In this document: one piece after another, positions 3,195 to 44,723 of the stretch
Layout: every line of letters starts with the position of its first letter
Numbering within the stretch: position 1 is the stretch's first letter
Origin: Mytilus galloprovincialis
Taxonomy: Eukaryota; Mollusca; Bivalvia; Mytilida; Mytilidae
Assembly (NCBI RefSeq): GCF_965363235.1
Contig: NC_134844.1
Location: forward strand, 77,717,244 to 77,781,243
Direction of reading: 5' to 3'
Length of the DNA stretch: 64,000 nucleotides
Position numbers and translations under genes: made by a program
The notes under the pieces: model-generated
Told to the model about the DNA's origin: nothing
The model's input: the letters and a program-made list of their open reading frames with translations, nothing else
The model's database searches: none

Positions 3195-3662
3195 AACACT
3201 GGACACTTTTAATTTGCAAAACACTCATTTGCAAATCCGCCGCCGCCTCAAACAAGAGCTACAATATCATGTATATAACCAAAATATGCAGAATTACATG
3301 GGATTCAATAATTTCATTGGTTTTCTACAGTTACTTTCATATTTATTTTGCAATTTGAATTATAAAAACATGGGATTTTCAATATCCCATGGGACAGGGC
3401 AAAATCCCATGGGATTTACCATTATCCCATGGGATTTTGGTTAAATCCCATGGGATTTTTTTTTGTCCCATGGGATTATTGTAGTCCCATGGGATATTTG
3501 TTGTCCCATGGGACAAAAAAAATCCCATGGGATTTTTATTATCCCATGGGATTTTTAATATCCCATGGGACAAATTAAAATCCTATGGGATTCTAATTGT
3601 AAATATATAGATATAAATAAACAGTAATGTGTATGTTACAATGTATTCTATTTGGTAGTAAA
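3195..3662 (+). repeat. Left TIR of copy 1, with palindrome array
   Basis: The outer 100 bases hold ATTTGCAAA twice and a CpG-containing block (ccgccgccgcctc) that stands out in this AT-rich DNA. The array follows at 3371-3595: ten perfect CCCATGGG cores and one CCTATGGG, starting at 3386, 3406, 3426, 3447, 3467, 3486, 3505, 3524, 3543, 3562 and 3582. Most are part of a 12-mer ATCCCATGGGAT or the variant TGTCCCATGGGACA. Spacers are A/T-rich and vary. The TIR ends near tttggtagtaaa, after which the two ends of the element diverge. The open frames that cross it (residues PMG, SHG, PWD repeating) are products of the array and not proteins. Confidence 0.85.
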
Positions 3663-6220
3663 TTATTATAAGATGAATCTTTTTAATTGAATATCTTTTT
3701 TTCTTGGGAAATGTTAATTTAGCATATTGTTCTTTAACTGTTCAAAACTAAACTTTTAAACAACAAAGCAGATAATGTAAGTACATGTATCAATATATGT
3801 TTATTCATGAATTATAGAATACTTTCTTGAAACACAATTATTTGCCATTTGAAATAAAAAAAAAAAACTCTATTGTTAGGCTTAACATACTAGTAGCTAT
3901 TTAAAGTAAATCTATTTTTTTCACAATATCCCTCAACACAAAACATTAATAGTTTCTTATCATCCAGCATTGTTTGATGGTATAGTCCACTTTTTGGACA
4001 TTCAGCACAGAACTTTGACATTATTGTGGTTTCAATATTTTTTTGAATTTAAAAGAACTTCAAATCATTGACTGAGTGATGAAAATAATAACTGATCCAA
4101 CTTTTTTCTTTGAATTTATTCTGGTCTTGTTTCTATGTTTTCTCCATTTATTTTAGGTGGTGAATTTCAATCCTTCTGAAAAAGAACCAATAAAATCTAA
4201 AGTAATGGATTATACAAAATTGTTTTCATACATGTAGCAATAATATGATTTTCAATAAAAATAGCTATGCGGTATGGATTTTACTGATTGTTAAAGGTTG
4301 TCCAGTGTCATCAGTTGCTAACGGCCTACATCCTTTTGTCTCTGATGGAGGGTTGTCAAATTAGCAATATACCACATCTTCCTATTCTAATACCATATAA
4401 CAATCAATTAATTTATTCTTTATAAAATTTGGGTATTTTCCCAAGTTATATACATAATATATATATATATACTGTAAATTCGGAATTAATGCAAGTTTTT
4501 TTTTATTGCGAAAAATGCAACGGAGTTGTAAACGCAATAATTTAAACTCGTATTATGAAATATTTTATATGGATTAACCAGGATTTTTCAAAATCGTAAA
4601 ATTTAAAATCGCATTTAAGTCTAAAATGACAGAATCGCAATAATAAATGCACGCAATAATTTATGAATTTTACAGTATAAAGATCAATGTTAAAACTTTA
4701 GACAACTATAATAACATTCCATTATTCACAAGAATTTGCAATATATTATACAAAATGCAGACAACAGAAACAATATTTCTTTAAGCTTTTGAAGTTCAGA
4801 CAGATTTCAATTTGTGTTTTATTTCAATGAAAAAATACCTTGAACATATTGGAAATTATAACATTGATACAAACAAAATATGTATGTTTTATCCTTTTTT
4901 TTTTGTGTTGTTGGCTTGCTGTCTCATTTTAATATACATTTAAACATACATCAATAATCTTCTTCTTTATTAAAAGTAAAAATGGGATATTTTTGATTTT
5001 GATATCCCAAAACATTATAGTTCTATCACATAACTTATTACCAAGTTCAAAAACACCAATGTGTTTGATATTAATTCTAAGACATGTATAAATGTTCCAG
5101 ACCATATCAGTATTCGGATCTTACTTTTATGGTCCAGAACTTACAGTCCCACCATATGTGTACAGTCAGACCATTTAAGTATACTTGTACTGTCTGGTAC
5201 CAGCTCAACCAAACCTGTGTTTTTATTTTAACTGCAATTAAACTTTTTGTATTAATCTATTAAAGATTTCAGTTATGTTGATCTGTACTGTACATTTGTT
5301 TGTAATAAACTTGACCAACTTCTTAAAATTTGGCAGACTGTATGCGTACAGTCCAAATACTTGTTTGTTCTGGAACATAAACATGATTAACAAGCATTTG
5401 GCAGGATGTCATGCTAAAATCCCATTAATATTAGTACTAAATTTTGAGTATATACATGTAAATCCACAAGTTACTTACTGAAATTCATGGTGAACACTCA
5501 CCAAAAACTTACAATTTAGAGGAAAAACTGGAAAGATGAATGCACTAACACTATCAAAACAGAGCATAAAACTTACCGAAAAACAAGATGTTTTACATTT
5601 ATCCAGGAGCAGGATAATTGAAAATTTGTTTTTTTCTTTCTCTGCTGTCCATCATATAACCTTTGAATTCATTCATGCAAAATATGAAAATCTGCAAAGG
5701 TAAGACCTAGAACCTCAACTTATCCACATTTTGAATTTTGAACTGCATACTTGTCCTTTTCATCTTGCTGACAACCTAAACATAAAAAAATGATAAAAAC
5801 ATAATTCTAGATTGAATTTGTGTTTTTATTTTTGTTGGTACATGTACAAACAATTTTCCCAACTTTAAAACGAAAACATCATCACCAAAGAGGAGGTCAT
5901 ACTAACCTCCGAAATATTTAAACAAACCGAAATTATTACTTGATTAAGATCTTGTCGTAAATTAATGGCATAGATACTCTTATTTTTGAAAACTTGATGT
6001 CTATTGCATACTTATATTCCTTTGTACGAGAGTATGCATATTAAGATGGACTCCATGGACTTTAATGTAAGCATGATTAATTTTACAGTCACTGACAGTT
6101 TTTCAGCTCTATGTGTACATTTTGAGAGAATCTTGCAATACTGTATATTCTGATATTCCGAACTTATTGTGAGGTTTTTATTAATACAACTGAAAGCTGT
6201 ATCTCGTTTTCATTTCTGAT
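3663..6220. other. Left arm body of copy 1, non-coding
   Basis: This stretch aligns in inverse order with 41720-44264 of copy 2. In the part I compared base by base (4681-4842) I count about seven differences in about 160 bases. It contains a diverged beta-tail repeat at about 4255-4395 (tatgcggtatgg to ataccacatcttc), a dinucleotide run at 4455-4470, and no credible gene. The absence of conserved reading frames shared by both copies argues that this arm never coded for a long single-exon protein. Confidence 0.6.
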
Positions 6221-6224
6221 ACAT

Positions 6225-6360
6225 ATTTATGAGCTGAAGACCAGTGCCGAATTTTTCTCACTGCATTGAAGACCCATAGGTGACCTTCGGCCGTTGTCTG
6301 CTCTTTGATTGGGTTGTTGTCTCTTTGTCAAATTCCCAGTTTCCACTTCCCATTTTATAT
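6225..6360 (+). repeat. SINE-like gamma tail
   Basis: The block runs from gagctgaagaccagtgcc through cattgaagacccatagg and ggttgttgtctctttg to a final ttccacttcccattttat. The same block ends the retroelement at 30560-30690 and recurs at 63176-63250; its copy in transposon copy 2 is 41565-41710 (reverse). It was therefore in the element before the two copies separated. Confidence 0.6.
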
Positions 6361-6564
6361 CATGTATGCTGATTTTTATTAAATTACAATATTCATTCAT
6401 GCAATTTTGTCTATTATTGAAAATACGATAAGCAAAAATAAATGCACAAAAAATTTAACATTGTTATATATATGTAAAAGACTTTTTTTTAAATTCAAAA
6501 CAGTTGCCTACACTGTTAATTTCCTTGTTTGATTTCATATTTTTAAAGCCTTTATAGCTAGCTA

Positions 6565-7480
6565 GATGGTATGCCGGGGCGGATCCAGCCATTTTAAAAA
6601 GGGGGGTTCCCAACCCAAGACAAAGGGGATGATCCTATATTCATTTGATTTGTTTTATTGTCTCATACAAGAATGTATATGGTTTGACGGTGGGGATCAG
6701 GGATCCTGAAATTTTTTCACCTAACCACTGGATGACAGGGGATCTCAACTATTTAAAAAGTTTCTCAAACATGTGGGGGTGGGGGTGAACCCCATGGACT
6801 CTCCCTATATTTCCTTTGATTTGTTTTATTGTTCTATACAAGAATATATAAATATGGTTTAGGGGTGGGGATCTTGACCGTTTACAAGTTTTCAAACTAG
6901 AGGGGGTGGGACTTCACTTTTATTTTATTTCATTATTAATTTTATTGTCCCCGACAAGAATATATATGGTTTAGGGGTGGGGATCTGGATCGTTCACAAG
7001 ATAATAGCACATTCTCAAATTGAACAGAGTGGGGTAACCCCCAAAGACCTCCTTTTAATTTCATTTGATTTGTTTTATCGCCCCATTCAAGAATATATAT
7101 TGTTTAGGGATGGGGATCTGGACCGTTTACAAGATAATAGCATATTCTCCAATTGAAAGGGGTGGGGATTACCTCCCATGGACTCACCCTCCCTTCTTTC
7201 TTCCCCCCGAAATACCTTTTAATAAGCCCCAATGCACAGATAGTTCACAGTATTTTTCCTTGATTTACACTAAAGAATATACACTATACAGGTGTAATTT
7301 TTTTTTTAAAAGATAATACAACTGAAGACCACCATGACCACAGTGGTGGATCCAGAATTTTTCATAAGCGGGGCCCACCGACTGCCTAAGAGGGGCCTGC
7401 TCCTGCCATGACTTAGTGATTCCATTATCCATATATAATCAACCAATTCTTTTCCCAAACAGGGGGCCCTGAACTCTTGA
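6565..7480 (+). mobile_element. GGCGGATCC-type MITE with an internal minisatellite
   Basis: It opens ccggggcggatccagcc, the terminal word of the short MITEs at 8781, 11911, 39104 and 39500. Inside, a unit with the words tacaagaatatatatgg and ttaggggtggggatc occurs about four times (near 6666, 6836, 6953, 7087) at a pitch of about 115-170 bases. A second MITE start (ggtggatccagaattt) lies at 7346. The equivalent region in copy 2 (40330-41385) has about six units, so the array changed length after the copies separated. Confidence 0.6.
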
Positions 7481-8013
7481 TTCCCCCTTTTTTATCCTCA
7501 TTTCAATCACCCTGATATAAATTTAGTTTTATCACTTACAATAGGAATGGTTTGAATTCCCCAATAATTCTTATATACCATTAATATCAACATATTTCAT
7601 TTTTGATAAATGAAAGGCAAAAGTTTTCTATGGGTAGAAATGGATAGTGGGAAGCTTTCAGATTCACACCATGCCGGTGGCTGTGTTCAAAGTGCTGGGT
7701 TTTTATGACCCTCGTTGTTTGCGGACTAACTATTTAGGCCAGTGGTGGATAATAGTGTGCGTGCATTAATCTTCTATACCTTCTTAATCAATATATTCAA
7801 ATACTGACGGCAAGTGTTGTAATGATGTATCAATGTCTTTTTGAAATCACCGTGCTATTTACATGTGGGATCGAGAATGCAGGGGAAGGAAACTTGTCAA
7901 TTATGTTTATTTCTAAGCCAAAATAAAATGAGCCGCCGTAAAATTAACCTTGGGTAATAACAGTGCATGTAAGGCTCGTCTCGGAGGGGTGTCTTTTTTT
8001 CTGTCTTCTTTTT
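7481..8013. other. Left arm body of copy 1, continued
   Basis: This aligns inversely with 39700-40330, including gaatgcaggggaaggaaac and ccttgggtaataacagtg type words. No gene signal. Confidence 0.5.
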
Positions 8014-8296
8014 ATGCCCCACCTACGATAGTAGAGGGGCATTATGTTTTCTGGTCTGTGCCTCCGTTCGTTCGTCCGTTCGTTCGTCCTGTTTCAGGTT
8101 AAAGTTTTTGGTCGAGGTAGTTTTTGATGAAGTTGAAGTCCAATCAACCTGAAACTTAGTATATATGTTCCTTATGGTATGATCTTTCTAATTTTAATGT
8201 CAAATTAGAGTTCTTACCCCAATTTCACGGTCCACTGAACATAGAAAATGATAGTGCGAGTGGGGCATCCGTGTACTGGGGACACATTCTTGTTTT
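8014..8296 (+). mobile_element. R2 hairpin-ended repeat, insertion specific to copy 1
   Basis: It starts atgccccacctacgatagta and ends gacacattcttg. The first 30 bases fold back (ATGCCCC, then GGGGCAT). It includes a gttcgttcgtcc run and the words gaagtccaatcaacc and gaacatagaaaatgatag found in all four copies (also 35204-35506, 35581-36040, 46869-47385). Copy 2 has an empty site here (about 39714, a plain A/T run between agaagacag-side and agctatat-side words). I see no clear target duplication. No coding capacity. Confidence 0.75.
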
Positions 8297-8625
8297 AGTT
8301 ATATTTTTAATAACTTACACTTTTTTCCATTATTCTCTTTCTTTCACTATTCTTTATTCCTTTTTTTTCTTTGTCCTTTGTTCTCTATTCTGTTAATTTT
8401 TTTGAAAATTTGAGTTGTAAATTTTCCTAAAAAGTACTTATTTCCGTTCATCTATTATGGGTATAAACTAAACTGAACAAGAAAAGTATTAGTAAACAGA
8501 CAGAAAGTCCGACGTTGAATTAATTATTTTACAATTAATTGTTTAAATATATATATGAGAGAATGTTTTAGGCGAATTTTCTTTAATTACAGATAAATGT
8601 ATGTTCAGGAAATGATTTATTCTTC

Positions 8626-10483
8626 GGGTACGTCTAAACAACCGCTCAGGACCTCCTGAGTGCACTCAGGACATACAAAGTGCACTCAGGACCCATTACC
8701 GTAATCATATCTGCACACATGATGGATGTTTATAATACGCTTCTTATTTTAGAGTTAAATTTTGATAGAAGTTGAAATCGCAGGGGCGGATCCAGCCATT
8801 TTAAAAGGGGGGGGGGGTCCTAACCAAGGGCAAAAAAAGGGGGGTTCAACTACATGTCCCCATTCAAATGCATTGATCGGCCAAAAAAAGGGGGGGTCCA
8901 ACCCCCCCGGAACCCCCCTCCCCCCTCTGGATCCGCGCCTGAATCGAACTTACAAATGGAAGTTTTTAACGACCTTGACTGGCTATACAGCCCTTGCACG
9001 GTCGGTTGAATCGAACTTAGATAGATATGTTAATTCTTATAAAATAATGAGGGCACGTGTCACTGATTACACAACTACTGAGCCATGAATTATCCAATCA
9101 ACAAAATTGATTGGATTATCTTTATTGTTTTTTAGGAATTGTATTGTTTAGTTCAGTTTTACCTTTAACATGAATTTGCATATAGAAAAAATAAAACATA
9201 TATCTCATTCGATGTGCTTTTTCAGTTTATTTTTCATGATGACGGGTAAATTAATTTGTTGTGTTTTGCAGTTCACGAATAAAGAAAATTATTTTATAGT
9301 TGCGTTTTTTTTTCTGTAACAAGTTCGATTTTTGTTTTTCAGTGTGATTCTTTTCTCTATCTCTCTCTCTAAATCAAGTTTTTAAACAAACACAATGTTG
9401 ACTGAATATCAAATTTTATTACATTTGATTTCTTTATTCTCAACAAACCATTATACAAGAGAAGACAATTATGTACAATATTCAGTTTAACCTTAACGGA
9501 AATCTGTGCACGAAGACTTAGTCGTGGTTTGAACGGATTTCGTGTCAATAAACTGTCTTCGAAATAGTCTTTCTTTGTTAATGTTTGTGTCATTTTGGTC
9601 TTTTGTGGATAGTTGTCTCATTAGCAATCATACCACATCTTCTTTTTTAAAATTTCTCGCTACTACAATCTAACTTACATATTTTTTAGAAATAATTATA
9701 CCCAAAATATCATAATTTTCATAAAAACGGAGACGAAAACGGAGACAAGTTCATTTTCAGAATTTATTTTCGCATTGAAATTCGTTTCAGGCTTGTGAAA
9801 CTGGACAAAACGACTTTAATTGGAGAAAAAAAACTTAATAAAAACGGATTTCTTAAAATATTCGTATAACTCAAAAATAAAATTCCTGGACAAGTTCGAT
9901 AAAAATGAGAAATAACATCTAACTACATGTATATGAGTTTGATTGTTTGAAAAGTACGGCTTTTACCGTTTAGAACGGATTCCATATACAAAACTTTAAT
10001 TAATATAAATTCTTTTAAAGTATGAACATTTATAATTATTTCCCTTTTCAAACTCGTGCAAAGAATTAATTACTGGTCCAGGACATGATAATAAAATTAA
10101 GAATAAAACTTAAAAATTTATGGAACGAAATTTTAATAAAAGACGAAAATCTTAAAACATCGTGATATTCATTCTAGACGTCACAATATTACTTCCCGCA
10201 TGGTCACACTGTACTAACAACACAATGTATAAAACAACAATAAAGATAATTCAATTAATTTTGTTGATTGGATAATTCATGGCTCAGTAGTTGTGTAATC
10301 AGTGACACGTGCCCTTATTATTTTCTAAGAATTACAAATTCTACCAAATTTAACTCTAAAATAAGAAGCGTATAAAGAATATATGCATCCATCCTGTGTG
10401 CGATGACTATAAAGGGTCCTGAGTGCACTTCGTATGTCATGAGTGCAATCAGGAGGTCCTTCAAGCGGTGTTTAGACGTACCG
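8626..10483 (+). mobile_element. 1.86-kb TIR element with 9-bp target duplication
   Basis: Ends are GGGTACGTCTAAACA at 8626 and its inverse at 10483 (tttagacgtaccg). The nine bases TTATTCTTC stand directly outside both ends (8617-8625 and 10484-10492). The TIRs extend inwards for about 250 bases: 8626-8780 pairs with about 10335-10483 and 9030-9125 pairs with 10240-10330. A MITE (8781-8941) splits the left TIR. Nine-base duplications fit Mutator-like or Merlin-like elements; there is no transposase to decide. It holds a short beta-tail piece at 9586-9650. The family has further ends at 11810-11852, 13404-13569 and possibly 61669. Confidence 0.8.
8781..8941 (+). mobile_element. 161-bp GGCGGATCC MITE nested in the TIR element
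   Basis: It opens CAGGGGCGGATCCAG and closes CTGGATCCGCGCCTG, an imperfect inverted pair, and is flanked by AATCG on both sides (8776-8780 and 8942-8946). The inside is rich in G runs and then C runs, so the whole unit can fold back on itself. The 108-codon frame that crosses it is a by-product. Confidence 0.8.
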
Positions 10484-10492
10484 TTATTCTTC

Positions 10493-11904
10493 TGGAAGCT
10501 TCAATTTTTTCTTATCAATAACTTTTACACAAGGAGACATTTTTTTTTGACAGCATGAACCCCAGTTAATGAGCAAACACAAATTAAGAAAAAAAATCGT
10601 TTACAATTAAATTTTATAGAAGGAAAAAAGGGGGAGGGGGTAATAAACAAATTTTATTTACGCACACATACTTTTAAACAGATTTGCATATGTAAGCTCT
10701 CTATAGTTAATGTTAAATTATTTCAGGAGTTTTGAAAAAAAGAATATTATATACAGTTTAATTTCGACTAAAATAGTGATTCTTTTTATAGATTTGGTAC
10801 CTCAGTTTCGACTCAACATTTCATTTTGAATTGTTAGATGGCAAACTCTTTAGGCGAATATTGTATCTGTTCTTTATTTAATTATGGTGATATTGGCGAT
10901 AATATTCATTATAACAAGGCCTTGTACAAATCCTTGATTATAGAATGTTTGGTAATATAAAAAGACGAAAGTAGACAAACCCTAATTATGCAGGGTTTCA
11001 CAAGTTGATCTCCAAGCGGCCCACATTTAACATATAATAAGATCTATATTTTTCAACGTTTTCAAAATGAAATAACTTGAATTGAAAATTTCCCAACTGT
11101 GAAAATTTGTTATTTCTAAACGTCTTTTATTATTATTTCGGAAAAAAAAATTATTTAGCATATTCATATATTTTCATAATTTTTTCCGCAAAACCTTTTT
11201 TTTTGCAAAGTTTACTTCTATATGTTTTTAACCATCACCAGCGACTTATTCTCTGCCATCACCAATTAGTCCTAATTATTAAAGATCAATTGCCCAAATT
11301 CAAATGATGATTGGTATATCGTATTGAATATGACCATCGGTCATCCGTGACGTATCCCAAATAACGACGCATGCCGATAGATAGATCATAGTTTATTAAT
11401 TAGCGTCTCGCAATTTAAATTTCATCAAGGGGACTTAATTAAACCAGTTACTATACAAATCTTGAAAAAACGATGTACATGTACTTTTTAATATTTTTAA
11501 AACAAATTACGAAAACGTTTAGTGTAAAAATCACCGAATATAAATGTTTCTTTCTTGCAGGTTTTGGCATTTGTAAATAACATTAACGTTTTGGAATTCT
11601 GATGCAAAAGACAGTCGATTCAAACTGAAATAACTTCTTTAAAGATGGTTTGATTTTTTCAGAGACACATATATTATATATGTCTCAATACATGTATTAT
11701 ATGTCTCTGATTTTATCAAAACAAAAATTACAAAATTATAAAATATGTTAGTTATCGAATGTATACCCTGAACTCTTACTATTATATATACATGTCCTAA
11801 GTTACTTAATGTCCTGTGTGCAACCAGGAGATCCTGAACGGTTTTTAAACGTACCATTATTTTATATGCATATATTCAAAGCTGTTCTTAATTATATGCA
11901 TACT
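10493..11904. other. AT-rich interior of copy 1, one transposon-end remnant
   Basis: No gene. At about 11810-11852 the words gtcctgtgtgcaaccaggag and aaacgtacc match the right end of the element at 8626-10483, so this is a stranded end. An inverted pair of agagacatat and atatgtctct words lies at 11660-11710. Confidence 0.45.
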
Positions 11905-11910
11905 AGGTAT

Positions 11911-12067
11911 CAGTGGCGGATCCAGGGGGAGGGTTTCGGGGGTTGGAACCACCCCTTTTTTTGAACGATCAATGTATTTGAATGGGGACATATGGTTGGA
12001 ACCACCCCCTCCCCCTTTTGTCCTGGGTTGAGACCCCCTTCTTTTCAAATGGCTGGCTCCGCCGCAG
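11911..12067 (-). mobile_element. GGCGGATCC MITE
   Basis: It begins cagtggcggatcc and ends ggctggctccgccgcag, the same family as 8781-8941 but reversed. AGGTAT stands on both sides (11905-11910 and 12068-12073). Confidence 0.75.
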
Positions 12068-12084
12068 AGGTATATTTATATATA

Positions 12085-12232
12085 TATGTGTGTACCAGCC
12101 CCCCTCCTAAATCTTGGGAAACAAATGGTAGATTATATAGGGAATCACGGAAGCATGACTGGACGTGACCCCTCTAAGGCAGTCAATGAGTCCCCACTTA
12201 TGAAAATTTCTGGATCAACCATTGCTTAGTTC
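12085..12232 (-). repeat. Diverged MITE of the ggggcccc type
   Basis: It contains tatatagggaatcacgg, catgactgg, gtcccc-acttatgaaaattt and ctggatcaaccattgc, words shared with the MITEs at 39104-39262 and 39500-39631. Ends are worn and no target duplication is clear. Confidence 0.5.
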
Positions 12233-13403
12233 TAGTTATCTTAGGTCCTAGTGTGAAATAATGCCAATAGGTCTTTTAAAACACATCTTTATTCATACAT
12301 GTATATATACGTTTTCTCACGGATTTGTTCATGCAATATTGGAATTATGTTTACTCAATGCGCAATTACTGAAGTTTATATTTGCTACTTTTCTTCTTAA
12401 TTTCATATAATTTTCTTTTTTATTTTTTTCTTCGAAAAATTAGTGGTGTTGAAATAGGGAATGGACACAGATACCTTATCACATTTAACCAAAGAAATGT
12501 TGTATAATGTCATCAATCTGTATTACACGTAGACAGGATGTTCTCTAGAAAACTATACGTTATACACACACGAGAATACACGCACTGTCGTAATGGAAAA
12601 TTACTGTATGTTATAGTTACCTGTAATCAGCTTTGCAACACCATGTCATGACAGTTCAAAAAGATTTTCTTCAAATCAAATTGGAATATTCATTTTTTCT
12701 GTAAAATTTAAAACTTTAAAAAGTAAGACTTTGACAAAATTATGAAATAGAAAGAATTGAACAATTTAAAATCGTATTTTAACAAAGATTTAGATATAAT
12801 TTTACAACGATCCTTAAAAAATAACCAAACAAACGTTGAATCAAACGATATGAACCTACGCAGTTTTATATTAAAATACTGACACACACCAGTTTGCCAT
12901 CTCAGTATGCAAGGCAAGGGTGCTTGGTGAGGTGCTGGAACTTGATGTACATGTATCATTAAGTTAATACAGTTCTGTTAGTATTGACTGCCTTTTTACA
13001 GAGACTTTCTATTCTTACTGTTATCAGTTAGTATAGACGGTTCCTGGCTTAGAATGATTCTCTGCTCAGCAAATAGTGCGTAATTAGCATTTGAATCAAA
13101 TTTCTTGTAGAAGTAAAAAACACAAATTAATGTATTTGACAACTTTATTCAGGAGCACAGTCTATATTATCCGGCGTAAATAACTTCGAGATTTATGTGG
13201 AAGTGTACTCTGCTGCTCGATCTATGCTAATCGATGTTCCAGTATATTTCATATTTATATTTATTCGTGAGGCCTCGTCATCGTTTATATTCACTAAAAG
13301 CACAGTCGCCTAAATATTTTATATGGCGAAAAAATTGCGAAAATTGGGGGAATAATATATTTTTAGTAGCATTATTATTTTAGAATCTTAAGAGGTTGCT
13401 TGC
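12233..13403. other. AT-rich interior of copy 1, nothing recognised
   Basis: No repeat family or gene could be supported. Short open frames only. Confidence 0.4.
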
Positions 13404-13569
13404 AAATTTAACTCTAAAATGAGAAGTGTATGACGATCTATAACGAATATATACATCCATCATGTGTGCAGATACGACGGCGACTATATAGGGTCTGCCA
13501 TGAGTGCACTTTGTATGCCCTGCATGTGTGCACCCAGGAGGTCCTCCTGAGCGGTGTTTAGACGTACCG
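13404..13569 (-). repeat. Stranded end of the GGTACGTCTAAACA element family
   Basis: The order aaatttaactctaaaatgag, catccatcatgtgtgcag, aggaggtcctcctgagcgg and tttagacgtaccg repeats the right TIR of the element at 8626-10483. There is no partner left end nearby, so it is a fragment or a recombined copy. Confidence 0.6.
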
Positions 13570-13734
13570 GGAAAATCTGATCTGATTCAGGATCAATTCA
13601 TCGGTTACACTCCCCTGTCACCAGTGATTCTTTTTTGCTGACATTCTGAAAAAGTATTGTGTAGTCCCTGTGTAAGTGTTGACTCTCAACTTGCACATGT
13701 GATTTTTTAACACTCCCTGGACTTCTGCAAAAAC

Positions 13735-30688: not shown

Positions 30689-30689
30689 A

Positions 30690-33285: not shown

Positions 33286-33732
33286 AACACTGGACACTTT
33301 AAATTTGCAAAACACTCATTTGCAAATCCGCCGCCGCCTCAAACAAGAGCTACAATGTCATGAATATAACCAAAATGTGCGGAATTACATGGGATTCAAT
33401 AATTTCATTGGTTTTCTACTGTTACTATTATATTTATTTTGCTATTTGATTTATAAAAACATGGGATTTTCAATATCCCATGGGATTGACCATTATCCCA
33501 TGGGATTTTGGTAAAATCCCATGGGATTTTTTTTTATCCCATGGGATAATTGTAGTCCCATGGGATATTTGTTGTCCCATGGGACAAAAAAAATCCCATG
33601 GGACTTTAATTATTCAATGGGATTTTTTATATCCCATGGGACAAAATAAAATCCTATGGGATTAAATTATAAATATATAGATATAAATATACAGTAATGT
33701 AAATGTAACAATGAATGCTGTTTGGTAGTAAA
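33286..33732 (+). repeat. TIR of copy 2 (inner end), palindrome array
   Basis: CCCATGGG cores start at 33477, 33497, 33518, 33538, 33557, 33576, 33595 and 33633; a changed site (tcaatggg) sits in register near 33614 and CCTATGGG at 33653. Even the changed site keeps the 19-base step. Confidence 0.85.
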
Positions 33733-34769
33733 ATGTTTTAAAAGTATGCAAGGTTTTTATATTTATTAAATATACATGTACATATATTTATTTTTTTTTT
33801 CATTTTGTCACAAACATGTTTTTAATTTGTTTATATGACAATAAAGATAATTCTTATTTTGGAATGTATAATAATATTTACAGTCAAAGAGTAAAGTCCT
33901 TTAACTGAAACAAAATGATGAAATGTCTAAATAAATGAAAAAATATTGTTTTGAAATCTTTGTCTTGTTTATTCTACTATGAAAAATAGAACTGAAAAAA
34001 ATATTCCATATTCTGACTGAATTGTTTACTCTTTTCACGAGGTGAGGTTTTCTTTGTTATAGTTTCATTGCAATACATGAATATGCAAACAATTTGAATT
34101 ATATACATTTGAGGTGTACATAATGGTATGCTTATATTTGCAAATTTATAATATAAACACTTTCTGTAAAAGTTTTTTTTTCCCCAACTTGCTATGTACA
34201 ATTATTCAGTCCACTATATAAGAGTCAAGTCAATAAATTATTTCATCCACCAGAATATTCCTGCAATTCTTAGACAAAACATTTTTTCAATCTGTTCTTC
34301 AAAGATCTTCCTCGTACATCTTTATTGGGTGGAGCAATTCAAATGAGAAGACAAAGCAAGTTTATTTGGACAACATACTAATATTTTGTTCATTCGTTCC
34401 TTCTTTCAATTGATAATTACATTGTTGCATTTATATGATCAAGTTCTTGTGCATCTATGATCGTGATGATATGACTCCTATTTGTTTATAGTCATTATGT
34501 TGAAATTTCCCTTTTCTAATAAATGTAGGAAAAAACACGTTCCATTTCAAATTAATAAAAAAAGTTGCACTATGAAGAAAAATATCAACTTTAAGTTTTC
34601 TGTTCAGTATTGATCTGTTGTATGATGACCATGAAAACCGAGATGTCTGACCTACAAATACACAAAACTCAAAAATTATCAGTGAAGAGAGCAATACAAT
34701 GGCTATGTTATCATGTTTATGAACATTATGATAAACTTTCATTTGAATATATATTCATTGTTAGTACTT
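33733..34769. other. Right arm body of copy 2
   Basis: Inverse counterpart of about 18190-19218 in copy 1, for example gacaaagcaagtttatttgg at about 34352 against its inverse at 18570. No gene. Confidence 0.6.
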
Positions 34770-35508
34770 TTATTTCAGTAATTTGTGTCTATGATTTACA
34801 TATTATTGGTTGTTGTTTGGTTCCGTGTTGCAGTCTTTTGAATTAAGCCCATTGCAACAAATGTTTACAATTTGTTCAAATGCTGTGCTGTTATTAAAAC
34901 CACTGTCCGGTATAGGGTTTGCTCATTGTCAAAGGCTGTACAATGAACTATTTTTGTTAAATAAAGGCAGCTTGCAGGTCTAAATCAAATTTTTTTCTTA
35001 ATATATGATTTCGCTATATTTTTCTATAAATGAACTTTATCTTATACTTAATAGAAAAATAAAAAAAATTAAAATGGGGTCACCGTTCATTTACGCTCTC
35101 AATCTGCCTTCGAAAGAAACATACATTTTTGTAAACTTAAGGTACTTTTTTTTCTGTTGAACTAATACATGTAATAGGAGAAATAGAGGTAATATCGAAA
35201 ATAAAACAAGAATGTGTCCTCAGTACACGAATGCCCCACTCGCACTATCATTTTCTATGTTCAGTGGACCGTGAAATTGGGGTAAAATCTCTAATTTGGC
35301 ATTAAAATTAGAAAGATCATATCATAGGGAACATGTGTACCAAGTTTGAAGTCGATTGGACTTCAACTTCATCAAAAACTACCTCGACCAAAAACTTTAA
35401 CCTGAAGCGGGACAGACGGACGAACGAACGAACGGACGAACGAACGAACGGACGCACAGACCAGAAAACATAATGCCTCTCTACTATCGTAGTTGGGGCA
35501 TAAAAAGA
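34770..35508 (-). mobile_element. Block specific to copy 2, ending in an R2 copy
   Basis: Copy 1 passes directly from the gtact word to ctaaattacagaaat (18175-18195), while copy 2 has about 740 bases between them. The right part (35204-35506) is an R2 copy on the minus strand, opening acaagaatgtgtcc and ending gtagttggggcat. The left part includes a worn beta-tail word at about 34905-34965 (ccggtatagggtttgctcat). Confidence 0.6.
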
Positions 35509-35580
35509 ACTAAATTACAGAAATTGCTTATATTTTATAATAGTTTAGTTTAAGTACAGCTTATTTGAAAATGATAATAA

Positions 35581-36040
35581 ACAAGAATGTGTCCAAAGAA
35601 CACTGATGCCCCACTCGCACTATCATTTTCCATGTTCAATGAACTGTAAATTTGGTAAAAAATCTAATTTGGAATTAAATTTAGAAAGATCATACCATAG
35701 GGAACATGTGATCTAAGTTTCAAGTGGATTGGACTACAACTTCATCAAAAACTACCTTGACCAAAAACTTTAACCTGAAACTCCCACTTTCATTTTCTAT
35801 GTTCAGTGGACCGTGAAATTGGGGTCAAAAGTCTAATTTGGCTTTAAAATTAGAAAGATCATATCATAAGCAACATGTGTACTAAGTTTTGAAGTTGATT
35901 GAACTTCAGCTTCATCATAAACTACCTTGACCAAAAACTTTAACCTGAAGCGGGACAGACGGACGGACGAACGGACGGTTGAACGAACAAACAGACCAGA
36001 AAACCTAATGCTCCTTTACTATCGTAGGTGGGGCATAAAA
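35581..36040 (-). mobile_element. R2 hairpin-ended repeat, insertion specific to copy 2
   Basis: It opens acaagaatgtgtcc and closes cgtaggtggggcat. Inside, about 190 bases are duplicated (words actttcattttctatgttca and gaccaaaaactttaacctga occur twice). Copy 1 has an empty site at about 18112-18120. No clear target duplication. Confidence 0.75.
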
Positions 36041-37130
36041 ACATAGGTCACCAATGAGTTAAAAAAGATATTACAATTCTAATGCCAAAAAATGGCATTT
36101 TTGCACCAAAGGGAGATAATTTTGAGCTTTTTCAATGATATATATATATACATTTTAAAAGTCATCTTGGGCCAAAACGAATTGATTGTTTTGAATGCTT
36201 TGTGTACCATATGATAACATGGATAAAGTAACAACTAATAAAGTTATAAATAAAATGAGTTATGAAAAAAAAAATATTTTAAATATTTTTCTGAAATTTG
36301 TATACCCTAGAGCCTCCTTAAATGTCATTTGATCTCTATTGGAGAAAAGTCTCATTGGAAATCAGACTGCTAAGTGCTTCTTACTTTTATATCAACACAG
36401 CCATATTATACCTGTCCAATATCAGGAGCTTGTACATAGTTCAGTGGTTGAAGTTGGTTCATATCGGTCATTTTTGTTTTTCATAATTTTTTGTTTTTAT
36501 AAATTAGTCTGGTATATTTGAAGTTTGAATTGATGCTTTGTTTCAAATTTTGTCAGTGTTGTCTTTTATAGATTACTATCACATGTATAGGGTATGGGTT
36601 TTCTCATTACTTACAGGTCATCAATGGCCTCTAATAAGTAATTACAATGCTTACATCCACTAAATTGAATTCTGTTGGCTAGTTTTCTCATTCATCATAC
36701 ATTGTCATACCACATCTTATTTTAATAAATATTTGATCATTATGACCAAAACTTTTATAACAGTGGACATACCATTTAGGCTTTGTTGACCTCTGTAAAT
36801 CTATGTTTGTTGATAATTTCTTCTGTTTAAAGTTTCCCTTTATCTTTAATGTTCTTGCCCTACACATAAAAGGGTAAACATTATCATTTAATAAACTAAA
36901 AACAAAAATAACTACTTTTACATAATTAGTAGGCAACTGAAAATTTTGCCTCATTTGTATATACCGTACCATCAACTTGCTCATCATTCTTGCTGTTTAA
37001 TATTATCATTATTCTATGAAAATGAGGTCACAGTAAAATTAACCTTGGCAGACATACATCTTATTTTTATATGATACCTTGTAGTCATTCCGTACAACAA
37101 CAAGTAGACCTATGCTTATGCATGTTATAA
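36041..37130. other. Right arm body of copy 2, continued
   Basis: Inverse counterpart of 17066-18110, with the worn beta tail at about 36545-36725 ending catcttattttaataa. No gene. Confidence 0.55.
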
Positions 37131-37491
37131 TATCTGATAAAATGACAAAACCAAGAAAACTTATCATTAACCAAAGAACCATAAAATGCAGTCATGGTTA
37201 TATAAATCTGCCAGACAGACATGCACACCTTACAATTGTTATATATCCACCAAATTTAATCTACCTGTAACTTTAAACATATGATAAACTGACAAAACTA
37301 TGCAGTGTTTCATTGACCAATGAACCATGAAAATGAGGTCAAGGTCATATAAAATATGGCAGACAGACATGTGCATCTTACAATCATTCCATTCACTAAA
37401 TAAAGGGGCCTTATTACTTACAGTATCCGGAAAATAGACCAAACCACAAAAAATAAACATTTTCAAAGTTCCTTATACCCTGCCCAATTAA
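37131..37491 (+). repeat. Tandem repeat of about 150-bp period
   Basis: The words accatgaaaatgaggtcaag, cattgaccaatgaacc and cttacaatcattccattcac recur. Counterpart of 15164-15521. Confidence 0.6.
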
Positions 37492-38202
37492 GAGATAACT
37501 GTATTGTATTTGAAGCTTTGCGGACGTCCATCGGTAGTTTTACTGTCGCAAATTTAGTTTACCTGGCGACGCGTAGCGGAGACAGGTAAACGGGTATTTG
37601 CGACAGTAAAACTACAGAGTTCGCGAAATATTTTTAGCCATGGTGGTCCTTGAAGAAAATCTGCTGGTCCTCACTATTAATCTATTGAAAAATACTAAAA
37701 TTGTGTCAGTCCTATGCAAGATTTTGGAGGTGAAATCCTGAGGACTGACACTTTTCGCAAACTCTGAAACTACCGATGGACGTCCGCAAAGCTTCAAATA
37801 CAATACAGTTATCTCTATTCTAATGCAAAAAAAGTTTATAATTAAATTTTGATCATTATTTCAGTGTAAAATCTTCAATATAGAAATTTCCGCGAAAAGA
37901 AGTTATCTTCTTTGGTCCCTACACTAGGTGACGTCATAGGTATGCTTCCGTCGTGCAATGTGTCGTGCAAACATAAACACCAGGCGTTTTCGGGCTTCTG
38001 TGCCGCTTCAAAATGTAATAAAATTTGATAAAAAGAAGATTTTTATGTGCAACATGTGAGTATTTTGGCTAATTATTGTAGAAATTACATGTCAATACAT
38101 TCAGCAATTCAAAATGTCGGCTTCCTTAGTTACAGACAAGGAGATAGAGAATTTTACGCTTACTGTCATCCAATCAGAACCATTGATACAAAATAATTGC
38201 AT
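37492..38202. mobile_element. Nested foldback insertion specific to copy 2
   Basis: Copy 1 is continuous across this point (15163). The block has an outer inverted pair (agataactgtattgtatttg at 37494 with its inverse ending near 37815, and gacgtccatcggtag in both) and an inner one (tagttttactgtcgcaaat at 37540 with its inverse at 37592-37610, around cctggcgacgcgtagcgg). The right half is less AT-rich and contains a perfect TGACGTCA at 37929-37936. A frame starts at 38114 (MSASLVTDKEIENF) and runs into the alpha module, so only its first 35 or so codons are specific to this block. I do not recognise it. Confidence 0.55.
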
Positions 38203-38455
38203 TAGAATTTGTCATGGATGTGCCTGTTCCAAGTCAGGATCCTATAATTCAGTGATTGTCGTTTGTTTATGTTTAACATATCTGTTTTTCCATTTTTTGC
38301 ACATTAATTAGGTTGTCAGTTTTCTCGTTTGAATTGTCATTACTGGACCTTTTATAGCTGACTAGGCAGTATGGGTTTTGTTCATTGTTGAAGGCTGTAT
38401 GGTGACCTTGTGTTGTTAATTTCTGTTTCATTTGGTCCATTTTTTATATTGTCCA
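38203..38455 (+). repeat. Alpha plus beta tail module
   Basis: gtgcctgttccaagtcagga and attcagtgattgtcgtttg (alpha) are followed by gttttctcgtttgaattgtc and ttgttcattgttgaaggctg (beta). The same order ends the retroelement at 20415-20690, so this is a stranded tail of that family. Confidence 0.6.
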
Positions 38456-39060
38456 ATGTACATGATGTATTATGAAAATAAAGTAAGATGACATATGCAC
38501 CTAGTTGACCTTTTGCTAATTTGAAAATAAGACAGTAGAAAAACTGGCAAAAAAAAAAGTAACATTAAGCAATGAACCATAAAAATGAGGTCAAAATTGA
38601 ATAAAAGTAAAAACATGCCAGACTAACATGTACATCCCTAAAAATGTTCATACAACAAATATACTTGACATGTTGCATACAATATTAGAAAACCTGACCA
38701 AAACACAAAAAATTAACAATAACCACTGAACCATGAAAACAAGGTCCAGGTCAAATGAAACTTGCCAGTTGGACATGTATGCATACCTTACAATCATTCC
38801 ATACCATTATTAAAAGTAAATAAAGTAGACACATTGTTTATGGTATCTGAGATATGGTTGTGACCACAAAAGCTTAACTTGTTCACTGATCCTTGAAAAA
38901 AGGTCAAACCAAGTGAAAACTGTCTGGCAAACATGAAGACTTTGCAAGGTCTGACATATCAAATATAGTTATCCTTAAATTTTTTAGTATTCTTGATTTC
39001 TCTTATAATCCTATTACTCATAATAATCATAATAGAAATGAGGATTCTGAAAAACCTTAA
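38456..39060 (+). repeat. Diverged units of the 150-bp tandem repeat
   Basis: Three to four units marked by aaccatgaaaa-aggtc, gccagttggacatgtatgc and cttacaatcattccatacc lie at 38540-38990. Not seen at this position in copy 1. Confidence 0.5.
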
Positions 39061-39064
39061 CTTT

Positions 39065-39340
39065 TTTTCAATGTCAGTCCAAATTTCCCCGACCATCACC
39101 CCGCAGAGGCGGATTTAAGGGGGCCCAAGGGGCCCGGCCCCCCCCCTTTTTGGGAAAAAATTTGGTTGCTTATATAGGGAATCACTGAAGCGTGACTGGA
39201 GCGGGCCCCTCTTAGGTCAGTCAGTGGGCCCCCACTTATGAAAATTCCTGGATCCGCCACTGCCCCGGGTGGCTTCTATTATAACAAGACCTTCCTGTTA
39301 TTATATATAGTGTTGAATTGGTTATTAAAATTTCACGCAC
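39065..39340 (+). repeat. LINE/SINE 3' piece interrupted by a MITE
   Basis: cagtccaaatttccccgacc and, after the MITE, gggtggcttctattataac follow the uninterrupted copy at 23745-23800. The latter acts as an empty-site reference for the MITE. Confidence 0.65.
39104..39262 (+). mobile_element. GGCGGAT MITE with 5-bp target duplication
   Basis: It opens CAGAGGCGGATTTAAG and closes CTGGATCCGCCACTG. CCCCG lies on both sides (39099-39103 and 39263-39267). The related sequence at 23770 has the unoccupied site (tcatcccgagtgg). Confidence 0.85.
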
Positions 39341-39499
39341 AATCTTGGCTGATATGCATGAAACCATTATTTCATGAAACTGCATGAGAAAGACTAATCG
39401 CGTAATACCGAATATATATATTGTATCTTATGTCTCTGCCAGAACTAAAAAATAAACCACCTTAAGTCCACATAAGAGGGTATGGATGTGAATTAACAG

Positions 39500-39631
39500 C
39501 AGAGGCGGATTTAGGGGGGGAGGGGGCCCGGGCCCCCCTTTTTTTTGAAAAAATTGGTTGCTTATATAGGGAATCACTGAAGCGTGACTGAAGCGGGCCC
39601 CCACTAATGAAAATTTCTGGATCCACCACTG
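39500..39631 (+). mobile_element. GGCGGAT MITE with 5-bp target duplication, at the arm boundary
   Basis: It opens CAGAGGCGGATTTAGG and closes CTGGATCCACCACTG. AACAG lies on both sides (39495-39499 and 39632-39636). It sits where similarity between copies 1 and 2 ends (8396 in copy 1). Confidence 0.8.
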
Positions 39632-39636
39632 AACAG

Positions 39637-41564
39637 AATAGAGAATAACGGACAAAAAAAGCTTTAAGAGAATAATGGGGAAAAGTGTAAGTTATTAAAA
39701 ATATAGCTAAAAAAAAGAAGACAGAAAAAAAGACCCCCCCCCCCCCCGAGACGATCCTTACCCCTCAACTGTTATTTGACGCTGCCGAGTTAGTTTGAGA
39801 CAAAGACAGCCCGTAACCCTTTTGAATCAATTTGAGGATTACCCAAGGTTAATTTTACGGCAACTTATTTTATTTTGGGTTAAAGATAAACATAGTCATA
39901 ATTGACAAGTTTCCTTCCCCTGCATTCTCGATCGCACATGTAAATAGCACGTTGGTCTCAAATAAGACATTGATACATTACAACACTTGCCGTCAGTATA
40001 TGAAAATATTGATTAAGAAGGTATAGAAAAATAATGCACGCACACTATTATCCACCACAGGCCTAAATCGTTAGTCCACAAACAACGAGGGTGATAAAAC
40101 CTAGCACTTTGAACACAGACACCGGCATGTTGTGAATTTGAAAGCTTCCCAAATTAGTACTGTGACTATCCATTTCTACCCATAGAAAACTTTTGCCCTT
40201 CATTTATCAGATTTAAAAATGAAATATGTTGATATTAATGGTATATTAAAATTATTGGGGAATTCAAACCATTCCTATTGTAAGTGAAAAAAAACTAAAT
40301 TTATATCAGGGTGATTGAAATGAGGAAAAAAAGGGGGGGTGTCAGTTCAGGGCCCCCTTTTTGGAAAATATATACAAGCCCCTCTAAGGCAGTTGGTGGG
40401 CGTGGTCTTCAGTTGTATTATCTTAAAAGCTTTACACCTGTAATATTCTAAAGTGTAAATCAAGGGAAGTTAATGTAAATTATCTTTGCATTGGGGTCTA
40501 TTAAAGGGTATTTTTGGGGGAAGAAAGAAGGGAGGGTGAGTCCATGGAAGGTAATCCCAACCCCCTCAATTTAAGAATATGCTATTATCTTGTAAACGGT
40601 CCAGATCCCCACCCCTAAACCATATATATTCTTGAATGGGACGATAAAATAAATCAAATGAAATGAAATGAAAGGGAGGTCCCTTGGGGTTACCCCACCC
40701 TGTTCAATTTGAGAATGTGATATTATCTTGTAAACGATCCAGATCCCCACCCCTCAACCATATATATTCCTGTAGGGAACAATAAAATTAATGAAATGAA
40801 ATAAAAGGGAAGGTCCCTGGGGATCACCCCACCCCTATACCATATATTCTTATGTGGGACAATAAAACTAATCAAATGTAATTAAAGGGAAGTCCCTGGG
40901 GGTTACCCCACCCTGTTCAATTTGAGAATGTGCTATTATCTTGTGCTGGTGAATGATCCAGATCCCCATCCCTAAACCATATATATTCTTGTAGGGGACA
41001 ATAAAATAAATGAAATAAAATAAAAGGGAAGTCCCTAGGGGGTCACCCCACCCCCTCTAGTTTGAAAACTTGTAAACGGTCAAGATCCCCACCCCTAAAC
41101 GGTTCCATATATATATATTCTTGTATGGAACAAAATACATCAAATGAAATATAGGGAGAGTCCATGGGGGTCACCCCCACCCCCTATGTTTGAAAAACTT
41201 TTAAATGGTTGAGATCCCCAGTGGTTAGTTGAAAAAATTTCGGGATCCCTGATCTCCACCCTTAAACCGTATATATTCTTGTATGAGACAATAAAACAAA
41301 TCAAATGAATATGGGATCATCCCCTTTGTCTTGGGTTGGGAACCCCCCTTTTTATAATGGATGGATCCGCCCGGCATACCATCTAGCTAGTTATAAAGGC
41401 TTTATAAATATGAAATAAATCAAACAAGGAAATTAACAGTGCAGGCAACTGTTTTGAATTTTAAAAAAGCCTTTAATAACAATGTTAAATTTTTTGTGCA
41501 TTTATTTTTTGCTTATTTTCAATAATTGCATGATTGAAAATTGTATGATAAGAAAAATCTGCAT
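39637..41564. other. Left arm body of copy 2 with the expanded minisatellite
   Basis: Inverse counterpart of 6360-8395. From about 40330 to 41385 lies the MITE with internal minisatellite: about six units marked by gatccccacccctaaacc and tatatattcttg, against about four in copy 1. A C homopolymer stands at 39734-39748. No gene. Confidence 0.6.
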
Positions 41565-41710
41565 ACATGTTATAGAGACGAAACTGGGAATTTGACAAAG
41601 AGAAAACAACCCAACCAAAGAGCAGACAACGGCCAAAGGTCACCTATGGGTCTTCAATGCAATGAGAAAATCTCGGCACTGGTCTTCAGCTCATTAATAT
41701 ATGTATCCCA
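41565..41710 (-). repeat. SINE-like gamma tail
   Basis: Inverse counterpart of 6225-6360, with gggaatttgacaaagag and caatgcaatgagaaaatctc words. Confidence 0.6.
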
Positions 41711-42741
41711 AATGAGACTGAGATACAGCTCTCAGTTGCAGTAATAAAAACCTCACAATAAGTTCTGAATATCAGAATTAACAGTATTGCAAGATTCTCT
41801 CAAAATGTACACATAGAGCTGAGAAACTGTAAAACTAATCATGCTTATTTAACATTAAAGTCCTTGGAATCAATCTTAATATGCATACTCTTGTACAAAG
41901 GAATATAAGTATGCAAAAGACATATATGGTCTTCAAAAATAAGAGTATCAATGCTATTAATTTATGACAAGATCTTAATCAAGCAATAATTTCGGTTTGT
42001 TTAAATATTTCGGAGGTTATTATGACCTCCTTTTTTGTGATGATGTTTTTGTTTTTAAGTTGGGATAATTGTTTGTACCAACAAAAATAAAAACACAAAG
42101 TTAATCTAGAATTATGTTTTTATCATTTTTTTATGTTTAGGTTGTCAGCAAGATGAAAAGGACAAATATTACAGTTCAAAATTCAAAATGTGGATAAGCT
42201 GAGGTTCTTGAAAGGTCATACCTTTGCAGATTTTCATATTTTGCATGAATGAATTTAAAGTTTATATGATGGATGGCAGAGAAAGAAAAAAAAACTTTTC
42301 AATTATCCTGCTCCTGAAGGATAAATGTAAAACATCTTGTTTTCGGTAAGTTTTATGCTCCTGTTTATTAAATAGTGTTAGTGCATTCATCTGTCCAGTC
42401 TTTCCTCTAAATTGTATCCTCTTTAAGTTTTTGGTGAGTGTTCACGATGAATTTCAGTAAGTAACTTGTGGATTTACATGTTTATACTCAAAATTTAGTA
42501 CTAATATTAATGAGATTTTAGCATGACATCCTCGAAAATGCTTGTTAATCATGTTTATGTTCCAGAACATATGAGTATTTGGACTGTACGCATACAGTCT
42601 GCCCAATTTTAAGAAGTTGGTCAAGTTTATTAGAAACAAATGTACAGTACAGATCAACATAACTGAAATCTTTAATAGATTAATACAAAAAGTTTGCAGT
42701 TGAAATAAAAACACATGTTTGGTTGAGCTGGTACTAGACAC
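41711..42741. other. Left arm body of copy 2, non-coding
   Basis: Inverse counterpart of about 5200-6220. The minus-strand frame at 42454-42741 has a counterpart in copy 1 (5275-5481), but it is shorter there and has no motif I recognise, so I do not call a gene. Confidence 0.55.
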
Positions 42742-42946
42742 TTTTTTTTACATAAATAAGGCCTTTAGTTTTCTCGTTTGAATTTTTTTCCATTGTCTTA
42801 TCGGGGCCTATTATAGCTGACTATGCGGTATGGGCTTTGCTCATTGTTGAAGGCCGTACAGTGACCTATAGTTGTTAATGTCTATGTCATTTTGGTCTTT
42901 TGTGGATAGTTGTCTCATTGGCAATCATACCACATCTTCTTTTTTA
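42742..42946 (+). mobile_element. Solo beta-tail SINE, insertion specific to copy 2
   Basis: About 200 bases from tacataaataaggcctttag through gactatgcggtatgggcttt to accacatcttctttttt. Copy 1 has no such block at about 5185-5200 (gtactgtctggtacc region). This shows the beta tail moves on its own. The target duplication is not clear. Confidence 0.75.
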
Positions 42947-44264
42947 TACTACAAGTATACTCAAATGGTCTGACTGTATGCATATGGTGGGACTGTAAGT
43001 GTATACTTTTATGTTCTGGGCCATAAACGTATGGTCCAAAAACTGATATGATCTGGAACATTTATACATGTCTTAAAATTAATATCAAACACATTGGTTT
43101 TTTTTAACTTGATAATAAGTTATTCGATAGAACTATAATGTTTTGATATTATCAAAATAAAAAATATCCCATTTTTACATTTGATAAAAAAGAAGATTAT
43201 TAATGTATGTATAAATGTATATTAAAATGAGACGGCAAGCCAACAACACATAAAATAAGGATAAAACAATATAATTTTTTGTATCAATGTTATAATTTCC
43301 AATATATCCAAAGGTATTTTTTGATTGAAATAAAACACAAGTTGAAATCTGTCAGAACTTTAAAAGCGTAAAGAAATATTGTTTCTGTTGTCTGCATTTT
43401 GTATAATATATTACAAATTCTTGTGAATAATGGAATGTTATTATAGTTGACTAAAGTTTTAACATTGATCTTTATATATATATTATATATACAACTTGGG
43501 AAAATACCCAAATGTTATAAAGAAGAATAAATTAATTGATTGTTGTATAATATAAGAATAGGAAGATGTGGTATATTGCTAATTTGACAACTCTCCATCA
43601 GAAACCAAAGGATGTAGGAGGTTAGCAACTGATGACACTGGACAACCTTTAACATTCAGTTAAATCCATACCGCATAGCTATTTTTACTGAAAATCATAT
43701 TATTGCTACATGTATCCAAACAATTTTGTATAATACATAACTTCTCTTTTTCAGAAGGATTGAAATTCATCACCTAGAATAAATGGAGAAAACATAGATA
43801 CAAGACCAGAATAAATTCAAAGACAAAAGTTGGATCAGTTAGTATTTTCATCACTCAGTCAAGGATTTGAAGTCCTTTTAAATACCAAAAGATATTGAAA
43901 CCACAACAATGTCAAAGTTCTGTGCTGAATGACCAAAAAGTGGACTATATAGATACCATCAAACAATGCTGGATGATAAGAAACTATTAATGTTTTGTGT
44001 GGAGGGATATTGTGAAAAAAATAGACTTACTTAAATAGCTATTAGTATGTTAACCCTAAAAATAGAGCTTTTCATTGATTTCAAATGGTAAATAATTGTG
44101 TTTCAAGAAAGTATTCTATAATTCATGAATAAACATATATTGATACTTACATTATCTGCTTTGTTGTTTAAAAGTTTAGTTTTGAACAGTTATAGAGCAA
44201 TAAGTTGAATTAACATTTCCAAAGAAAAAAAGATATTCAATTAAAAAGATTCATCTTATAACAA
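42947..44264. other. Left arm body of copy 2, outer part
   Basis: Inverse counterpart of about 3663-5185, with the diverged beta tail at 43560-43690. No gene. Confidence 0.6.
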
Positions 44265-44723
44265 TTTACCACCAAATAGAATACATTGTAACATACACAT
44301 TACTGTATATTTATATCTATATATTTAAAACTTGAATCCCATAGGATTTTAATTTGTCCCATGGGATATTAAAAATCCCATGGGATAAATACAGTCCCAT
44401 GGGATTTTTTTTGTCCCATGGGACAACAAATATCCCATGGGACTACAATTATCCCATGGGACAAAAAAAAAATCCCATGGGAATCCCATGGGATAATGGT
44501 CAATCCCATGGGATTTTGCCCTGTCCCATGGGATATTGAAAATCCCATGTTTTTATAAATTAAATAGCAAAATAAATATAATAGTAACAGTAGAAAACCA
44601 ATGAAATTATTGAATCCCATGTAATTCCGCACAATTTGGTTATATTCATGACATTGTAGCTCTTGTTTGAGGCGGCGGCGGATTTGCAAATGAGTGTTTT
44701 GCAAATTTAAAGTGTCCAGTGTT
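44265..44723 (-). repeat. TIR of copy 2 (outer end), palindrome array
   Basis: CCCATGGG cores start at 44358, 44377, 44396, 44415, 44434, 44453, 44474, 44485, 44505 and 44525, with CCCATAGG at 44338. The pair 44474/44485 is only 11 bases apart, an extra site or a local slip; all other steps are 19-21. Confidence 0.85.

Follow-up and report, generated by a model that had tools for sequence, protein, structure and literature searches.

Two large elements with terminal inverted repeats (TIRs) lie in opposite orientation within a 64,000-nucleotide stretch of the Mytilus galloprovincialis genome (NCBI RefSeq assembly GCF_965363235.1, contig NC_134844.1, forward-strand positions 77,717,244 to 77,781,243), which was analysed as a whole and is referred to as the window. 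The elements probably represent a large non-autonomous family of class II (TIR) DNA transposons with foldback-like composite ends, which would be moved by a transposase acting in trans and would use the palindrome array in each TIR as a multi-site platform for protein binding. The two copies are separate insertions with common ends and 4-bp target site duplications (TSDs); no coding capacity was found in them, and their four TIRs vary little at the tip and in the cores of the array. The copies and their duplications, numbered from the first base of the window, are as follows.

3195..19662, forward strand: copy 1, 16,468 bp, TSD TATG (self-BLAST, ends and flanks)
33286..44723, reverse strand: copy 2, 11,438 bp, inverted, TSD GTAA (self-BLAST, ends and flanks)
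3191..3194: TSD TATG left of copy 1 (flanking 4-mers and empty-site alignment)
19663..19666: TSD TATG right of copy 1 (flanking 4-mers)
33282..33285: TSD GTAA left of copy 2 (flanking 4-mers)
44724..44727: TSD GTAA right of copy 2 (flanking 4-mers)

The terminal sequence AACACTGGACAC occurs exactly at four places in the window, which are the four element ends (3195, 19662 on the reverse strand, 33286, and 44723 on the reverse strand). When up to two mismatches are allowed, nine matches are found in all, the four ends included, versus 3.86 expected. The junctions of copy 1 read ...CTATG, element, TATGTATT..., and those of copy 2 read ...GGTAA, element, GTAAACTT.... A perfect 4-mer at one given offset has a chance probability of 0.0063, and its occurrence in both copies one of 4e-5. 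The elements thus carry the inverted termini of class II transposons together with a TSD of fixed length, 4 bp in two of two copies. The initial annotation, made from the sequence alone, had already described the common ends, the TIRs, the opposite orientation and the perfect duplications, and all of these are borne out by the self-BLAST and the flanking 4-mers. The copies are collinear in inverted orientation over eight main blocks, which total about 7.2 kb of copy 1 with the TIRs counted in, rather than the shared body of about 8 kb that had been proposed. The centres (7959-15160 in copy 1 vs 39837-37490 in copy 2) are largely copy-specific, with short matches only, and both contain nested repeats. 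A repeat family with ACGA/CGTC simple arrays (8006-8300, 35199-36041, 46861-47386) is present in both copies and outside them. Another family, resembling short interspersed elements (SINEs), is found at 20489-20692 and, nested in copy 2, at 42742-42945, with fragments at 14057-14167, 13946-14050, 38327-38437, 9575-9648 and elsewhere.

The insertion of copy 1 with a 4-bp TSD is recorded by a paralogous empty site.

29223..29327, forward strand: paralogous empty site of copy 1, inside a reverse transcriptase (RT)-like open reading frame (ORF); 80% over 105 bp through the junction

The flanks of copy 1, joined with one TATG, give an open reading frame, FNERNLCITGKLLNKGYRYHKLLKTFTKFFHRYKDL, whose DNA aligns to this site across the junction, and the alignment assigns the terminal AA/TT to the element. 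Since the match reaches no more than about 20 bp to the left of the junction, the target was itself probably an already truncated retroelement copy. The RT-like ORF that is related to this target (28156-29571, forward strand) contains IGIPMGTNCAPLIADLFLY and FRYLDDIL and has one in-frame stop. It gave only chance-level matches in Pfam and in PDB (the latter searched with 28156-29133), and we take it to be Penelope-like. An empty site for copy 2 was looked for in the window and none was found; the insertion of this copy is documented by its TSD and its ends. Just left of copy 2 stand two interlocked pairs of direct repeats (31347-31594/32704-32951, 98%; 32541-32715/33002-33175, 97%).

The 2-kb flanks of copy 1 have no BLAST match to those of copy 2 at E 1e-3, which points to separate insertions and rules out a duplication taking in the flanks. 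Together with the different TSDs, this upholds the earlier proposal of two insertions rather than one local duplication. Each copy also carries a nested insertion that is absent from the other.

4468..4675: insertion of about 208 bp nested in copy 1, resembling a miniature inverted-repeat transposable element, at a TA-rich site; absent from copy 2 (junction 43473-43476)
42741..42949: insertion of about 205 bp nested in copy 2, a SINE-like repeat; absent from copy 1

The differences between the copies show no codon periodicity in any of nine blocks (divergence 6.2-8.8%; chi-squared 0.18-3.85, 2 degrees of freedom); the tandem repeats of copy 1 beyond 6600 and one 79-bp block are not part of this table. 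Of the 70 insertions and deletions, 50 have lengths that would shift a reading frame. Between the TIRs, the longest ORFs measure 109 and 102 amino acids, lengths that 59 and 72, respectively, out of 100 Markov-1 random sequences attain; in two compared regions outside the copies, the longest ORFs beat all 100. A six-frame Pfam scan with X at stops reached a best E of 0.092 in the element, covering all of copy 2 and 7000-16200 of copy 1 directly, and the ends of copy 1 (3195-7000 and 16200-19662) through their copy 2 homologues. Its positive controls nearby were a GDSL-like lipase/acylhydrolase ORF (31712-32254, forward strand; E 3e-6) and a weak SAP domain in an ORF at 48014-48592 (reverse strand; E 3.5e-4), both below the curated cut-offs. 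Rfam at gathering thresholds and a tRNA scan returned nothing in the window. A 121-amino-acid open frame through a TIR array (44369-44734) was judged non-coding, since it runs through the repeated unit. The periodicity, indel, ORF-length and Pfam tests thus agree with the initial annotation, which had regarded the shared body as apparently non-coding and the whole as a large, non-autonomous-looking TIR element.

The TIRs are about 455-475 bp long, and the two of each copy are 90.7% (3195-3678/19662-19201) and 90.8% (33286-33741/44723-44256) identical by self-BLAST. From the outside inward, each consists of a tip of about 70 bp, a spacer with CATGGGA half-sites, a palindrome array and an AT-rich inner edge. 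Arrays of palindromes had been noticed before, and they are confirmed here as 10-11 TCCCATGGGA sites per TIR, mostly 19-21 bp apart.

3195..3666, forward strand: TIR L1
19201..19662, reverse strand: TIR R1
44256..44723, reverse strand: TIR L2
33286..33741, forward strand: TIR R2
3195..3264, forward strand: TIR tip of copy 1, with AACACTGGACAC, TTTGCAAA dyads at positions 19 and 34, and CCGCCGCCGCC
3385..3590: palindrome array of L1, 11 sites (10 exact TCCCATGGGA, one TCCTATGGGA), spacing 19-21 bp
19288..19472: palindrome array of R1, with 9 exact sites among 10, at intervals of 19-20 bp
33476..33661: palindrome array of R2; of its 10 sites, 8 are exact, one has a single mismatch and one has two
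44337..44533: palindrome array of L2, with 10 exact sites among 11; two of the sites are only 11 bp apart

A single strand of the TIR folds far better than its shuffles (z -11), as expected of any palindrome array. Exact searches of IMG/VR found no contig with a 22-mer or 44-mer of the TIR tip and none with a pattern of three array sites, and phage records gave no match to 3195-4460. The three-site pattern does occur in five contigs of the GTDB set, all titled as bacterial metagenome-assembled genomes, which are taken to be unrelated to the element. In one of them (L001, 7264-7309), three TCCCATGGGA sites lie 18 bp apart at a G+C content of 0.53; in the other four (L002-L005), of which positions and G+C were examined, the sites are mostly 18 or 23 bp apart or at multiples of these distances, and G+C is 0.52-0.59.

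The contrast between the cores of the array and their spacers suggests that the array is under selection. Between the units of one TIR, core identity is 0.98, 0.98, 0.98 and 0.94 (L1, R1, L2, R2), and that of the spacer edges, four bases on either side and given with no composition-matched baseline, is 0.43, 0.41, 0.39 and 0.46; one L2 unit with a 1-bp spacer is left out. Among the four TIRs, seven array units are in register in all and were compared, the outer three or four units of each TIR being excluded. Two of 70 shared core columns are variable, both in one R2 unit, versus 7 of 55 spacer columns (p 0.04), and the tip (1-70) has one variable column versus 13 of 120 in 71-190 (p 0.02). Taken together, the tip and the shared cores vary in 3 of 140 columns versus 36 of 250 in the rest of the TIR (Fisher p 3.5e-5). 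We infer that tips and cores were kept by selection for mobility while the lineages diverged.

The outer and inner parts of the TIRs group differently. All seven informative columns of the outer 190 bp pair L1 with R1 and L2 with R2, whereas at the inner edge none of four does so, and all four pair left with left and right with right (Fisher p 0.003). Across the outer 190 bp, L1 and R1 differ at 5 positions and L2 and R2 at 2, versus 9-12 between copies. The outer ends were therefore probably copied onto each other after the lineages split, so that the TIRs were homogenised from the tip inward within each lineage, and the copies may consequently have acquired much of their divergence before they were inserted. 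This likeness, the contrast between cores and spacers and the consensus of the COE/EBF (Collier/Olf/EBF) type described below go beyond the initial annotation and are new here.

A possible mechanism can be proposed by analogy with known transposons. The absent transposase, presumably of the DDE type, would be encoded by an autonomous relative elsewhere. It would bind and cut at the AACACTGG tip and join the ends to the two target strands at positions 4 bp apart. About ten dyad sites per TIR, spaced at roughly two helical turns, would form a platform for co-operative binding, either of the transposase itself at secondary sites, as reported for Galileo, or of a dimeric factor whose site has the COE/EBF consensus. 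The outer TIRs would be copied onto each other, by gene conversion or end repair, during the lifetime of a lineage.

Several points weigh against this interpretation. No transposase or autonomous copy is seen in the window, so that movement in trans is deduced indirectly, and only two copies are in view. The Pfam scan missed the RT-like ORF of the window and placed its controls below the cut-offs; a diverged transposase remnant could therefore escape it. A length of 11-16 kb, part of which consists of nested repeats, is large, as the longest curated autonomous groups of bivalves, Sola1 and Academ, average about 5.5 kb in the cited account (PMC10294476). The comparison of cores and spacers alone reaches just p 0.04 among the TIRs, the A/T-rich spacers may mutate faster, and the 70-bp limit of the tip was set only after the alignment was seen. 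The seven shared array units, which stand outside the Fisher test of TIR grouping, give one column for homogenisation and one against it, the former lying further out than the latter.

The element had been called unclassified. Its TSDs and termini were compared with published rules, given here as they appear in the cited passages, for Chapaev/EnSpm, Ginger, RAGL/Transib, Polinton, Galileo/Tetris, piggyBac and Academ; it breaks at least one rule of each. To this extent the absence of a classification stands, with Sola and the Repbase and Dfam collections outside the comparison. In Repbase, the length of the TSD and the first 11 bases decide where a non-autonomous family is placed (PMC4455052). 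No description of the element was found in the open-access literature searched, and a search with sequence strings gave one unrelated paper, which is weak evidence of novelty.

In its working, the element seems to resemble the foldback type of non-autonomous transposon. Galileo, of the P superfamily in Drosophila, has long TIRs, some with internal tandem repeats, and two-TIR copies without transposase; in one Galileo, the tandem repeats are reported to hold secondary transposase binding sites. It differs in TSDs of 7-8 bp and repeat units of about 140-210 bp, and the cited parts mention no 10-bp palindrome array (PMC4168063, PMC3573991). The words gene conversion and homogenisation do not occur in the paper on the secondary sites. 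Tetris, a foldback element of Drosophila virilis, is likewise non-autonomous and without conserved ORFs, its transposase source was not found, and its TIR is built of an outer domain, a tandem array and an inner domain, with possible homogenisation of the tandem repeats within a copy; its TSDs are 8-10 bp and its repeats about 220 bp long (PMC4079207). The mussel element shares with this group the long TIRs with internal tandem repeats, but its TSD of 4 bp instead of 7-10 bp contradicts both Galileo and Tetris.

Three further families can be set aside by their rules. The ends of Ginger1 and Ginger2 are TGTNR, which the element lacks, despite their 4-bp TSD; the TSD of Ginger1 is CCGG or CCGT, and TIRs reach about 300 bp among the rows listed (PMC2836005). 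RAGL/Transib elements combine a 5-bp TSD with a CAC end (PMC7204232), and both rules are broken here, where the TSD is 4 bp and the terminus is AACAC. The TTAA of piggyBac (PMC5199201) is matched by neither TATG nor GTAA.

A serious alternative, held at somewhat less than even chances, is that the element falls into one of the known superfamilies whose TSDs are short (Sola1, Sola2, Academ or an atypical lineage related to CMC), with a terminal rule that lay outside the comparison or admits exceptions. Sola2-type elements make 4-bp TSDs (PMC3627910), and both Academ and Sola are reported from bivalves (PMC10294476). Chapaev has a TSD of 3-4 bp and CAC ends (PMC4079192), and the element has CACTG close to its end, with CAC two bases inside. 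The 2-5 bp allowed for Chapaev/EnSpm (CMC) also accommodate its duplications, and CA..TG ends hold only in most of the wider CMCT clade (PMC12730594). However, the termini are given as invariably 5'-CAC..GTG-3' in Chapaev and as CAC..GTG in EnSpm (PMC4079192, PMC12730594), whereas the element reads AACAC..GTGTT. Its AA/TT is missing from the empty site and so belongs to the element, which leaves CAC non-terminal. No transposase is seen in the copies, and the 3-bp TSD that one paper gives for Academ (PMC5199201) disagrees with 4 bp, excluding Academ under that rule and making the whole alternative slightly less likely.

An unlikely alternative, drawn from the sequence of the sites, is that the array would consist of host COE/EBF sites, through which the element might enlist a developmental factor so as to be transcribed or to transpose in certain cells. 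In vitro, EBF/Col has the consensus TCCCNNGGGA, and dimers of EBF bind ATTCCCNNGGGAAT (PMC4512700). The array sites fit the former, and 37 of its 38 matches in the window fall inside the four TIRs, whereas an average of 0.3 would be expected for the entire window from 30 Markov-1 sequences. However, the two middle bases are free in the consensus, yet they are AT in 37 of 37 TIR sites, as if the binder cared about them, and most of the sites listed lack the AT/AT that flanks the site in the full consensus. The constant middle AT favours an element-borne or another dimeric protein, and COE is kept as a rival. Host sites in a non-autonomous DNA transposon have a precedent in the zebrafish EnSpmN6_DR, which carries sites of the transcription factor p53 but is only 346 bp long and has two overlapping sites instead of arrays in long TIRs (PMC3485254). 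Still less likely is a new cut-and-paste superfamily, defined by 4-bp TSDs, AACACTGG ends and arrays of the COE/EBF type, in which a host factor or its element-borne relative would assemble the transposition complex and spread COE-responsive DNA.

It is more doubtful again that the element is what remains of a self-replicating one, Polinton-like or otherwise, with the array as an iteron-like replication origin and with TIRs kept alike by replication through joined ends. The length of 11-16 kb, the long TIRs and the tip-inward homogenisation within each copy would agree with such an origin; gene conversion accounts for the homogenisation equally well, the TSD is 4 bp versus the 6 bp given for Polinton (PMC10045372), and the Pfam scans of copy 2 and of 7000-16200 of copy 1, of limited sensitivity, found no polymerase (including polymerase B), integrase or capsid family. 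A single element that underwent local inverted segmental duplication, or an artefact of assembly, is barely credible: the copies are inverted and only 13.6 kb apart, but their TSDs differ, their flanks lack similarity, nine blocks are 6-9% diverged and each nested insertion has an empty counterpart in the other copy, an artefact being excluded only indirectly.

Two tandem repeats lie elsewhere in the window. About 3.2 copies of a 287-bp unit at 49783-50692 contain TGACCTTGACCT and AAGGTCA motifs, which resemble nuclear-receptor half-sites, and tandem CGTGTATCGTG units followed by a 36-bp unit occupy 59816-60053.

That the outer TIRs of each copy are alike is relevant to how elements with long TIRs keep both of their ends functional. 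If the array is indeed selected, the family would be a clear animal example of a DNA transposon whose ends are recognised at many sites, and perhaps also of a transposon which brings about ten consensus sites of a developmental factor per end to every insertion.

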